NCBI RefSeq assembly: GCF_040782645.1
Contig: NZ_CP160403.1
Location: 930,001-994,000 of the forward strand
From: Streptomyces sp. HUAS ZL42
Lineage (GTDB): Bacteria > Actinomycetota > Actinomycetes > Streptomycetales > Streptomycetaceae
DNA length: 64,000 bases
Reading direction: 5' to 3'
The notes beneath the pieces are model-generated. The model was not told where the DNA came from. It ran no database searches and worked only from the letters and a program-made list of their open reading frames with translations. Position 1 is the stretch's first letter. Every line of letters starts with the position of its first letter. The position numbers and the translations under genes are program-made. Below, in pieces: positions 26,939-30,802 of the stretch.

Positions 26939-27704
26939 CTACCGTGGGAGAGGCACCTCACGAGAGGCGCTGTGATGGCGCATGAGGTAGTTCACCACTC
27001 CCGCGATCTGCCCGATGGCGTCTTGGACGGCGCGATCGCCGAGGTGGCTCACCGCCAACGATTCGTTGCTGTCGAAGTTGAGTGTTCCGTACGCCACGTG
27101 GTCTGAGTCGATGAGCGGGTAGGCAAGCACGCAGCGCGTCTCCCTCCAGATCCCTGGCACCCGGCTGCCGTCCCGACCGAGGTCGCGGTTCGAATCATCG
27201 AGGTCAGCCGCGCGCACCGACCGCGTTACGAACGCCTCGCCCGCGACCCCGAAGTCGATAGGTTTCGAGAGGTTGAACTCTGGGTCAGTACGGATGTTGG
27301 CCCCAACTACCGAGGTACGGACCCCCCCTCTTGCGATCCGCAATCGCGACCAGACTTCGATAAACGGGTCCTGGATTCTGGGCGCGAAGCAGGCCGTTGA
27401 CGCCCTCAAGCAACACCTCGGTAAGCTGCTCGCCCTCTGCCTGTTGACGGATGCGTCGTGACTGAGTGCCTGCCTCGGCGAGAACTGCCTGGGCGACGAG
27501 CGCCAGCAGCCCTCCAAGCGCAAGGAAGTTGACGCTACCCAGGTCGGACAGCCTGTCGACAAAGGCCGCGAAGCCGGAGCCGCTGGCGGGCGGGGAAGTG
27601 GTCGCAATACCCGTGTAAATGCTGAACAGCAGCGCAGACGCAGTGGCCGCTATCACGCTCAACCAACGCTCGTTTGACGCGGCCCACCGTGCAGTTGTCC
27701 TCAT
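26939..27704 (-). pseudogene. Two-TM plus GAF-domain protein, frameshifted
   Basis: The 5' frame from ATG 27704 encodes two membrane helices (WLSVIAATASALLFSIYTGI, VNFLALGGLLALVAQAVLAE) and a helical linker (QSRRIRQQAEGEQLTEVLLE). The 3' frame encodes a GAF domain (IRTDPEFNLSKPIDFGVAGE, CVLAYPLIDSDHVAYGTLNF, VQDAIGQIAGVVNYL). One base change near 27340-27390 would join them into about 250 residues. GAF domains bind cyclic nucleotides or other small ligands, so the intact form would be a membrane sensor or effector. It is the last gene of the four-gene low-GC operon, 36 bases after the kinase-like gene. It may be a real lesion or a sequencing error. Confidence 0.6.
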
Positions 27705-27740
27705 AGCTCCTCGATTCTCAGATAGCAGTCCGGATCAGAC

Positions 27741-28424
27741 CTACCTGTGGATCGATGCGACCGCATCGCGCGCCTCGCGGTAGATTCGTTCAGGGAGGCT
27801 CGTCCCGTCAATCACGCGGATCGGTAGATCGAGAGCGGAGGCACAATGCCGCATCTCTGTCAAGTAGCGCCGACTGCGTCGAATCCGTTCGACTAGTGTC
27901 GTCTCTGAATCGTCAGGCCGCCGGGACAGTGCGCCTCCGCAAGTGGCGCAGCGATCGGGGTCAGACGCTGCGGCATGGGCCGGCCTTCTCGGCAATTCGC
28001 TGGGATCACGCTCGCAAGTCTGACATACGCGACGATTTGATCCGCGCTCCAAGAGCACTTCGTCCGGAGTGTCGATAAGCAGGACAGTGAGACGTGCCCC
28101 TGCGTCAGCGGTGAACCTGTAAAGGTCCAGCAATTGCAGTACATCCCAGGGTAGATTCTCGAGGAGTACGTTATCTCGGCTCCTTACAGCGTCCACGGCT
28201 AGACGGACCGCGAAAGCCAGAGCGTAGTCCGACGACCATCCCAGATGGTCGACTGGTCCGAAGAGATCGGCCAGCCCGGGTCGCCACTGGATTGCTCCTC
28301 TGATAGCGTCCCGTGGTCGAATAATGGCCGCAGCGAACTCGTCGCTCAGCTTTGCGGCCAACGTGGACTTCCCAACGTTGGGCGGACCGAGAAGGCTGAT
28401 GAACAAGCGACCGGGCGTCTCCAT
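27741..28424 (-). CDS. Adenylate-kinase-like P-loop kinase with zinc-knuckle LID
   Basis: 227 residues. Walker A GPPNVGKST (13-21) opens a nucleoside monophosphate kinase fold. The LID has the adenylate-kinase zinc pattern, Cys134-x2-Cys137 and Cys159-x2-Cys162, followed by ALSRRPDDSETT, close to the RxDD motif of adenylate kinases. The NMP-binding part (IIRPRDAIRGAIQW) departs from standard Adk, and the usual GxPRT stretch is not evident. It is therefore probably a specialised paralogue with a different acceptor. ATG follows the CYTH stop codon directly, with GAGGAA about 9 bases upstream: strict translational coupling. Confidence 0.75.
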   Translation of the reverse strand: METPGRLFISLLGPPNVGKSTLAAKLSDEFAAAIIRPRDAIRGAIQWRPGLADLFGPVDHLGWSSDYALAFAVRLAVDAVRSRDNVLLENLPWDVLQLLDLYRFTADAGARLTVLLIDTPDEVLLERGSNRRVCQTCERDPSELPRRPAHAAASDPDRCATCGGALSRRPDDSETTLVERIRRSRRYLTEMRHCASALDLPIRVIDGTSLPERIYREARDAVASIHR

Positions 28425-28991
28425 CTATGGTTCCTCGCCTGGCTCTGCCGATGTACTGTCGAAAGTCAACCGCGTCAAGGAACGTAGGTTGATTCCTGCG
28501 GCCGCGTACACACCCATCGTGTTGAGCCCGGTCAACGAATCTTCGTCGTAGCCGAGCTTCGCTGCCACTGAAATGACGGCGTCGCGGGACTCCGCCTCAA
28601 TTTCAAGATACGGTGTCAGCAGGGGCCATTCGTCGATTTCGACCTCTGCTCCGTCCAAGACGAACGAGGTGCGACGATTTTCTTGGTAAGACTTAGGAAT
28701 GAACCCGAGCAACCCGAGTATCACGTTCGCAGTATCGAAGTCGCTGACGCTGATTTCAAATTCCTCAGTACCATCGATGCCGTCATGAAGGATTCGCTTG
28801 ACCGAAATCGTGGCGTCATCGCCGATTGAGCGCAACCGCATCCATGTGGTTTCGTCGCCTGGGACGATGTCGTAAACGTACCGTCGAAGGAGTGCGGTTT
28901 CCCGCACCTGCCGACCGCCGCGCGCGAGGATTCGCTCGCTCATCGCAGCGGGGTCGATATTGAGGATTTTCGCCTCGAATTCCGTAGGCAT
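28425..28991 (-). CDS. CYTH-domain protein (class IV adenylyl cyclase/triphosphatase fold)
   Basis: 188 residues. The signature ExExK is at the N-terminus (TEFEAKIL: Glu4, Glu6, Lys8). The alternating charged strands of the triphosphate tunnel follow (WMRLRSIGDDATISVKRI, TEEFEISVSDFDTANVIL, NRRTSFVLDGAEVEIDEWP, YLEIEAESRDAVI). All the acidic and basic tunnel residues expected for binding a triphosphate with metal seem present. Members either make cAMP from ATP (CyaB) or hydrolyse inorganic or nucleoside triphosphates; sequence alone does not decide. It sits between the cupin-like gene and the kinase-like gene in one operon, in visibly less GC-rich DNA. Confidence 0.82.
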   Translation of the reverse strand: MPTEFEAKILNIDPAAMSERILARGGRQVRETALLRRYVYDIVPGDETTWMRLRSIGDDATISVKRILHDGIDGTEEFEISVSDFDTANVILGLLGFIPKSYQENRRTSFVLDGAEVEIDEWPLLTPYLEIEAESRDAVISVAAKLGYDEDSLTGLNTMGVYAAAGINLRSLTRLTFDSTSAEPGEEP

Positions 28992-29072
28992 CAGCGTGGC
29001 TTAAGGCTCCTGCTTCTCGGATAATGTTGCACCAACGTCTCACGGGGAGAATGGGGCACCCTTGGCTACATG

Positions 29073-29759
29073 TCATTGCCCGCTGATGGCGGCGCGCAGC
29101 ATTTCAGCGGCATCCTGCGGCGGTATTACCGGCCGCAGCCCTACACTCCTTGGCGCTTCTTCAGCCGCGACCACAACCAGGGGCTGGTATGGGCCGACAC
29201 TCCGTCTGTCAGCGACGAGGAAGGTAATCGTCGGTGATTTCACAACCGCACTCCTATGGAGGAGTCGCGGACCAAGTCGGTAGACCAGCGGAGCCGGTAC
29301 GCGTCGCCGACGCACTTCGGTGATACTGCAATTGCCCTCCTGAGTGAAATCGTTACCTTCTGCCGTGTAGGTGACGCGCACGAACGCGACTTCACCGTCC
29401 GGCGAGTTGGCCGCAGTGAAATTTGTCTCCTCCAGCTCACCGATCAGAACTGCACTGGCCATGTTCCAGCCGTGATCGTGCAGGTTCCCGAGACCGTCCC
29501 TACGCGGCTCAGGGTGGTTCCACAGGTGGAGTCGGAACTCGACCTCGTGGGGCGCTCCTCCGAGCGCGGACACGTCGACGTGCAGGAAGCCGACTGGGTG
29601 CCTGCGCACGACGAGTTCACCTTTCTCGACACGCTCCGCGATCCGGAAGACGAGGTCGTTCACGTCGATCTCCGCCGGATGCCCGTCAGGTGTTCGCGCC
29701 ACTAAGTCGGCGGTGGCGGCAACCACGTCGTCAATCGTCATAGCGCGCCACCGAGACAT
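29073..29759 (-). CDS. Cupin-like metal-binding protein
   Basis: 228 residues from ATG 29759 (ATG 29741 also possible; neither has a strong ribosome site). The core has a cupin-type metal set: His94-x-His96 in NLHDHGWN, Glu110 in LIGELEETN and His168 in GPRLLHRSAV, resembling the cysteine-dioxygenase-like branch. The N-terminal 50 residues are helical. The substrate is unknown. First gene of the operon, 81 bases before the CYTH gene, on the same strand and of the same base composition. Confidence 0.6.
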   Translation of the reverse strand: MSRWRAMTIDDVVAATADLVARTPDGHPAEIDVNDLVFRIAERVEKGELVVRRHPVGFLHVDVSALGGAPHEVEFRLHLWNHPEPRRDGLGNLHDHGWNMASAVLIGELEETNFTAANSPDGEVAFVRVTYTAEGNDFTQEGNCSITEVRRRRVPAPLVYRLGPRLLHRSAVVKSPTITFLVADRRSVGPYQPLVVVAAEEAPRSVGLRPVIPPQDAAEMLRAAISGQ

Positions 29760-29918
29760 TCCTGGGCCGGCGATGCCCCAATCCGATGATCACTCCTACC
29801 ACTCCCCACCCGTCACAGTCCAACCTTGTCTTCAAGGGCAGTCGGTGCGTGACGCCGTAGTTCAGGACCGTGTTTGAGATCTGCCAGTCTCTGCGCCGAG
29901 GCGGTCGTTGAGCCTGAC

Positions 29919-30045
29919 GTGAGTGGTTCAGACGGGTAGCCGTCGGACCTGACGGATGAACAGTGGCCATTGGCCGAACCGTTGCTGCCGCCAGTGCGGA
30001 CGGGCCCGAAGGGCGGGCGGCGGGAGAAACATCCGCGACCCGGCT
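29919..30045 (+). mobile_element. 5' remnant of an IS5-type transposase gene
   Basis: From GTG 29919 the frame reads VSGSDG, a TAG stop, then SDLTDEQWPLAEPLLPPVR and TGPKGGRREKHPR, the standard beginning of IS5-family DDE transposases. The rest is absent: homology ends near 30040 where SARP-gene sequence begins on the other strand. The in-frame TAG stands where the family commonly has Tyr. A dead insertion-sequence end; the left terminal repeat may lie around 29855-29900. Confidence 0.65.
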
Positions 30046-30261
30046 CAGCGCTTCCCTGTAAAGGAACTGCGCCCACACGGCATTACGCGCCTCGGCCGGC
30101 GGGTCGTCACCCCGGATCCGGTCGATGAGGGTCTCGATCAGCGCCGGTCGCCCCGGGTCCACGGCCGGCGCCGCGAGAACCGCCTGATACCAGGGCGTCC
30201 CCGCGTCGAGCGACCGACCCGACAGCATCACCCGCACCTCGCCGAGCAGCCGGAACTCCAT
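30046..30261 (-). pseudogene. N-terminal fragment of a SARP/AfsR-type regulator
   Basis: From ATG 30261 the product is MEFRLLGEVRVMLSGRSLDA then ALIETLIDRIRGDDPPAEAR, the first 65 or so residues of a SARP DNA-binding domain. It is cut where the IS5 remnant begins, so the insertion or a later deletion removed the remainder. Non-functional. Confidence 0.65.
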
Positions 30262-30413
30262 CAGCACCTTCGGTGATCGAATCGCTACGGAAAGTTTCTC
30301 GCCAATGCTGCACGGGCCGCAAGGTCGCCGCAAGATGCGCAAGCAGGTCGTGGGGTGACCGTTTGGACATGCCTCACCAATCCGGTGGAACACACGTCCG
30401 CCAAGGGGACACC

Positions 30414-30802
30414 ATGATCGGCCAGCACACTCAGCGGCGACACCACCTCTGGCACGGTGACTGCGACACCGCTATTACGTCAGCTACGCGCCAGTCCTCG
30501 ACCCGCTCACCGGCGCGCCTTGGTACTACGACCTGCATCCAGCGGGATACGAGCCCGTGACACCGCCCGGGACCACGGCGCCTGCCCCCCTCGTGCCGAT
30601 CCCCGGATCGGGTCAGCCCGAACCACTGACCGTCCTCGAGTACCTCGAGGACACCGCCCGCGCCCTGGAGATACCGCTCGACGACTCAGTAGGCACGCTC
30701 ATTCAGCGGTCCTATCAGTCCGCGTTCGGCCGCACTCTGAACCGCTACGTCCTTGCTGACGTGCTGTTCTCTTCACCCAAGCCCGGTGGCGCCGAGTCCT
30801 GA
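30414..30802 (+). pseudogene. Small hypothetical gene with probable frameshift
   Basis: ATG 30414 opens a frame reading MIGQHTQRRHHLWHGDCDT. The more protein-like continuation (RYYVSYAPVLDPLTGAPWYY, then DLHPAGYEPV and TVLEYLEDTARALEIPLDDS) is in another frame that runs to the stop at 30802. A GTG at 30557 could give an 81-residue product by itself. The conserved-looking aromatic stretch suggests a real, about 130-residue protein of unknown role now out of frame. Confidence 0.4.

Follow-up and report, generated by a model that had tools for sequence, protein, structure and literature searches.

Gene content of the cassette

The window analyzed here, a stretch of 64,000 nucleotides from Streptomyces sp. 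HUAS ZL42 (bases 930,001-994,000 of its 9.87-Mb single-contig genome, G000), carries a small cassette at positions 26939-29759. Its genes lie on the minus strand in the order cupin, CYTH, adenylate-kinase-like kinase, and a protein with transmembrane (TM) and GAF-like parts (TM-GAF), separated by 81, 0, and 36 bases. The initial annotation had described four tightly spaced genes in a low-GC stretch. With this spacing, the cupin, CYTH, and kinase genes are all three intact and closely packed, whereas the TM-GAF gene is spread over two frames. The cassette has 61.0% G+C content, against 69.0% in the rest of the window, and none of 1111 same-length, non-overlapping windows was equally low, which leads us to infer a foreign origin from base composition.

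The cupin gene (29073-29741, minus strand) encodes a protein of 222 amino acids; its open reading frame (ORF) spans 29073-29759, and the start at 29741 is suggested by relatives. The CYTH gene (28425-28991, minus strand) encodes 188 amino acids and the kinase gene (27741-28424, minus strand) 227. The TM-GAF is split, also on the minus strand, into a two-TM N-terminal part with its own frame (ORF 27285-27704; TM segments assigned by eye) and a GAF-like C-terminal part (26939-27334) in a different frame, inside ORF 26939-27607. The frame switch falls close to a stretch of seven G (27322-27328), and the split could reflect either a genuine frameshift or an error in sequencing. The likeness to GAF was assigned by eye; Pfam gave no match to that domain in either piece. 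Relatives of TM-GAF on plasmids numbered zero.

The CYTH protein

The CYTH protein matched Pfam PF01928 with 29.5 bits (cut-off 23.2) and, by profile, 1yem and SaTTM 7ns8. It carries the motifs ExExK (E4, E6, K8), WxRxR (W50, R52, R54), and ExE (E130, E132), as do SaTTM, thiamine triphosphatases (ThTPases), and plant TTM1/2, for which ExExK, W/YxRxR, and ExE have been described (PMC8233210). We found 526 relatives, 120 of which were listed and are covered by the residue counts given here. W50, R52, R54, E130, and E132 were kept in 120/120.

Many of the listed relatives carry the source name adenylate cyclase (class 2 or IV), and the making or destruction of a nucleotide signal had been suggested for the window protein. 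By the published marks (PMC8233210), a true class IV cyclase (CyaB) carries an HF motif that lengthens ExExK to HFxxxxExExK, replaces the first Arg of (W/Y)xRxR by a small residue, and has Ala in place of the second Glu of ExE. None of the 117 listed relatives whose ExExK lies within the first 40 residues had the HF motif (0/117), the first Arg and second Glu were present throughout, and the NCBIfam cyclase model TIGR00318 scored 24.9 bits, below its cut-off of 57.95. With motifs opposite to the published marks and a score below cut-off, a class IV cyclase was rejected; the protein is probably of the triphosphatase type, as predicted from these residues. Because it fails the cyclase marks and has those of triphosphatases, the proposed analogy to Pycsar defense (a cyclase plus a membrane effector) falls too; PADLOC returned no Pycsar match, and the membrane protein is split. 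The result extends to an actinobacterial family often labelled class IV adenylate cyclase, whose members are more likely triphosphatases. This family was found in 15/296 genomes of the class at E 1e-25 (own genome included) and is therefore not a housekeeping one.

The suggested likeness to plant TTM1/2, in which the CYTH domain is joined to a kinase-type domain (phosphoribulokinase, PF00485; PMC8233210), has some basis. WxRxR is invariant here, and the same source reports W/YxRxR from no group other than ThTPases and the cluster of plant TTM1/2. The two functions lie in separate genes in the window, however, and the kinase is of the adenylate kinase type.

The adenylate-kinase-like kinase

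The kinase was recognized by Pfam AAA_33 (34.3 bits, cut-off 27) and fell below the cut-offs of Pfam ADK (20.9 versus 26.8 bits) and NCBIfam TIGR01351 (adk; 51.1 versus 168). The adenylate kinase fold, the P-loop, and a four-Cys lid are all present. In adenylate kinase, Arg88 of the DGFPR motif holds the AMP phosphate. The window protein retains the ATP side and lacks this arginine, with Trp93 at its position; across the family the position is W in 12 and G in 2 of 14 rows, and G in 9/9 further loci. The cassette enzymes are of phosphate- and triphosphate-handling types, as first annotated. No relatives of the kinase were found on viral contigs, and plasmids gave a single distant match, 29.5% identical.

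Adenylate kinases are able to make thiamine triphosphate (ThTP), and one could picture a cycle in which the kinase makes ThTP and a ThTPase-like CYTH protein removes it. The invariant WxRxR speaks for such a cycle, being a published ThTPase motif whose Trp stacks onto the thiazole ring (PMC8233210). We nevertheless consider it very improbable, since the motif also occurs in plant TTM1/2, which prefer pyrophosphate (PMC8233210), no thiamine gene was seen by eye in the neighborhoods read, and the cupin would have no place in it.

The cupin and its nucleocidin relatives

The cupin had no Pfam family match, and a PDB sequence search with its profile gave none. Its predicted fold is a double-stranded beta-helix with three His, thiol-dioxygenase-like (W74, H88, H90, and H162 in the 222-amino-acid numbering), and the label cupin first given is retained on this predicted fold. 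Streptomyces antibioticus has a cupin 79% identical to that of the window, and a search with the cupin profile matched 52 of the 392 genomes examined in the genus (own genome included).

The best-studied relative comes from nucleocidin biosynthesis. Nucleocidin fluorination requires orf(-3), orf2, and orf3, as knockouts made in S. calvus and in S. virens have shown (PMC10946740); in the authors' models Orf2 is a TTM protein and Orf(-3) is thiol-dioxygenase-like, with residues Tyr73, Trp100, His115, His117, and His200, and Orf3 bears a histidine phosphatase annotation. An Orf2-type protein, without a Pfam match, was present in 3/392 genomes (G018, G198, and G211, with a second G198 copy at a contig end). 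In all three it is followed by a histidine phosphatase, with a cupin within 10 kb; in G198 (locus L109) that cupin is broken. The five published Orf(-3) residues fall on their published numbers in G211 (L149) and G018 (L152) when the start is placed at Met11 or Met41. Choosing the start Met is one free choice, after which four spacings fit at two loci; the spacing was found in 0/56 other family cupins, including that of L109. Because the five residues match and the neighbors are an Orf2-type protein and a histidine phosphatase, L149 and L152 were therefore taken, from their sequences, as Orf(-3)-type loci, and the comparison was made with these in place of the S. calvus sequence.

The five-cupin group holding L149 aligned to the window-type cupins with an HH E value of 1e-13 (probability 98.1, 22% identity over 129 columns), and all three His as well as the Trp were in register. 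In the nucleocidin clusters, as in the window, a three-His thiol-dioxygenase-like cupin is accompanied by a TTM-fold protein, a fold that for Orf2 is the model of the authors of PMC10946740. The TTM label of the Orf2-type protein rests on that published model: neither Pfam nor NCBIfam recognized it, a PDB sequence search gave no match, and a Pfam AvrPto match (E 0.074) was below cut-off and taken as chance. Near the Orf(-3)-type cupin of G211 (L149, L154), genes resembling purine nucleoside phosphorylase, sulfotransferase, and radical SAM proteins were seen by eye, as a nucleocidin cluster might hold.

Recurrent neighborhoods

The initial annotation had raised co-occurrence of the CYTH and kinase genes, which holds in some organisms. 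Proteins on contigs of equal length were taken as sharing one contig. By this rule a cupin (P0148), a CYTH protein (P0003), and a kinase (P0122) share a metagenome contig of 5,723 bases, and CYTH-kinase pairs occur on contigs of 48,934 bases (P0036/P0125) and 8,218 bases (P0064/P0126). Among the matches listed, at least 3 of 12 close kinases thus have a CYTH partner, and several contigs are too short for a pair. A divergent CYTH-like protein also accompanies the kinase in two Micromonosporaceae (L002 and L003), where NDK, the CYTH-like protein, an HD-like protein, a 460-amino-acid protein, the kinase, HTH-NUDIX, and NUDIX genes lie together with GGDEF nearby; the CYTH-like proteins scored 22.2 and 22.0 bits (cut-off 23.2) and the HD-like protein 18.8 (cut-off 22).

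The loci read from the side of the CYTH gene speak against co-occurrence. CYTH neighbors were drawn from the 296 sampled genomes, two comparison genomes, and one plasmid. Of 20 other CYTH loci, 15 of close and 5 of weaker relatives, none had a cupin or a close kinase (0/20 each) when read with wide flanks, apart from two weak kinase-profile matches (E 3e-5 and 6e-5). The CYTH gene instead adjoins a radical SAM gene in L038, L041, L047, and L049, with a remnant in L039, and in L038, L040, L041, and L045 a NUDIX gene is found at a distance of about 3 kb or less. On a Rhodococcus ruber plasmid, it stands among transposases with none of the cassette partners.

Nine further kinase loci were examined (six from one search plus L037, L002, and L003; twelve weaker matches in the genus were left out). 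In 4/9, the kinase, a radical SAM gene, and a cupin stand in a row: L037 of Nocardia farcinica, L160 and L161 of G378, and L165 of G395. All four have a NUDIX gene opposite, 3/4 have PfkB, and an HTH-type regulator is nearby; L162 has a radical SAM piece, and L163 and L164 have neither radical SAM gene nor cupin. The cupin of these rows matched the Orf(-3)-type group with an HH E value of 2.1e-14 and the window type with a probability of just 35% (E 4e-4). The rows resemble the window in that a kinase of the same profile (A1) neighbors an Orf(-3)-type cupin, but carry radical SAM, NUDIX, and (3/4) PfkB genes in place of CYTH, and the ENLPW of the window kinase is DNFPG in their kinases.

The cupin family as a whole was surveyed in 56 loci (54 of the genus, including the broken cupin of L109, and two on plasmids). 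Using a hydropathy window and an in-house gene picker, we found that 32/56 cupin loci had, next to the cupin and on its strand, a gene for a protein predicted to have two or three TM segments, versus 25/543 control genes. An IMPase-like gene lay within 2.5 kb in 22/56. The 40/56 loci searched for CYTH by profile, with flanks of up to 10 kb, held none. In L124, a protein with the motif VEIERK, CYTH-like by eye, lies 5 bases upstream; no Pfam or NCBIfam model recognized it, and a PDB sequence search gave no match. Pairs of a cupin and a 2-TM protein include L104, L106, L112, L115, L131, L137, L141/L071, and L087, as well as L035 and L036 on plasmids.

The membrane partners bring to mind a signaling or defense module of the general kind first proposed, with a nucleotide signal that is made or removed enzymatically and sensed by a membrane protein. 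Besides the enrichment in TM partners, three observations are consistent with it: a two-TM, GAF-like protein stands last in the window operon; distant cupin matches on two plasmids form cupin and 2-TM pairs beside a recombinase gene; and the cupin, Orf2-type, histidine phosphatase set of L109 stands beside BrxD and BrxHI. Against these, the CYTH protein has no cyclase marks, the TM-GAF is spread over two frames, and the published knockouts tie Orf(-3) to biosynthesis (PMC10946740). PADLOC gave nothing for the cassette proteins other than a chance-level match of Csx3 to the kinase (E 0.024), and the 2-TM proteins scanned received no convincing name from Pfam or from PADLOC (six proteins). On balance, a signaling or defense role appears unlikely. 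At L109 (671-10360), the two BREX genes are joined by a third gene with weak matches to defense models.

A putative module for tailoring a phosphate-carrying molecule

The explanation that we favor, with about even confidence, is that the cassette is a rare, horizontally acquired module that tailors a phosphate-tagged small molecule, probably nucleoside- or nucleotide-like. It is favored because phosphoryl-transfer and phosphate-removing enzymes accompany an oxygenase-type cupin and because the best-studied relative of that cupin serves nucleoside biosynthesis. The adenylate-kinase-like enzyme would transfer phosphate from ATP to some acceptor that is not AMP. The three-His cupin of the Orf(-3) superfamily would then carry out an iron-dependent oxidation or other functionalization, and the CYTH enzyme would cleave tri- or diphosphate from the product or a by-product. 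The TM-GAF, split here, may have been a membrane sensor in a former intact state. The computed results are the folds, motifs, cupin homology to Orf(-3)-type proteins, and recurrent neighborhoods; which class of substrate is used, in which direction and order the steps run, which metal takes part, and what TM-GAF would do are proposals. A logic like the one proposed is found in AdeV, which performs 2'-chlorination of dAMP and so halogenates a phosphate-carrying nucleotide (PMC11188666). In the literature searched we recognized no described CYTH-kinase-cupin operon, and the passages available of PMC7824862 and PMC2922099 do not contain one.

Several points set limits to this explanation. As judged from aligned profiles, the link to nucleocidin is superfamily homology and not membership: the six window-type cupins aligned lack the stretch that precedes the first conserved His and holds the Tyr (Tyr73 of Orf(-3)). 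The window CYTH appears to belong to another subfamily, with no profile similarity to Orf2-type proteins by hhalign (Orf2-type set of 4 rows). An adenylate-kinase-like gene takes the place of the histidine phosphatase, none of which was found with Pfam among the 8 operon and flanking ORFs scanned, and no sulfamylation genes were recognized. The full trio is known from the window and from a single contig, assigned by its length.

A wider idea, which we advance as a long shot, is that Orf(-3)-related cupins could form the exchangeable core of a broad actinobacterial nucleotide-tailoring family. A remodelled adenylate kinase would add phosphate, the cupin would perform C-F-type or other unusual functionalization, and removal of the phosphate would fall to a TTM, NUDIX, IMPase, or histidine phosphatase enzyme; nucleocidin 4'-fluorination would be one case of a general chemistry on phosphate-tagged molecules, and the window a new one. 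A 2024 review states that the enzyme and mechanism for the nucleocidin 4'-C-F bond remain unclear (PMC11188666). The present analysis links one of three genes essential for fluorination with a large family of cupins whose neighbors recur (radical SAM, NUDIX, and 2-TM proteins, phosphatases, and the remodelled adenylate kinase), and this family offers simpler members to assay.

Flanking sequence and possible decay

The left neighbor of the cassette is a Ser/Thr kinase gene on the opposite strand. The right neighbor, outside the module, is the N-terminal remnant of a SARP regulator (29731-30393, minus strand), which matched the AfsR model with 31 bits, far below the whole-protein cut-off. DNA comparison showed 30083-30470 to be an 83% copy of sequence elsewhere in the genome, at 9,405,593, and the SARP debris described initially is thereby supported. 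Of the insertion sequence debris also named initially, no transposase was seen by eye in the flanking ORF list, for which no dedicated insertion sequence search was made. DNA comparison with 41 genomes (own included) gave no clean empty site.

This remnant, the low G+C content, and the split TM-GAF would also suit unrelated genes that travelled together on a foreign fragment and are now decaying, as would the varying partners of the CYTH family and its partnerless copy on the R. ruber plasmid. The short gaps (0, 36, and 81 bases), the intactness of three genes and the conservation of their active-site residues, and the recurrence of CYTH with kinase and of kinase with cupin in other organisms argue in the other direction. 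We judge chance assembly and decay to be improbable, and retain the tailoring module as the preferred explanation. Next to the SARP copy, positions 29866-30037 are repeated at 9,640,678 (78%), and the same repeat is present in another genome of the genus (G013).

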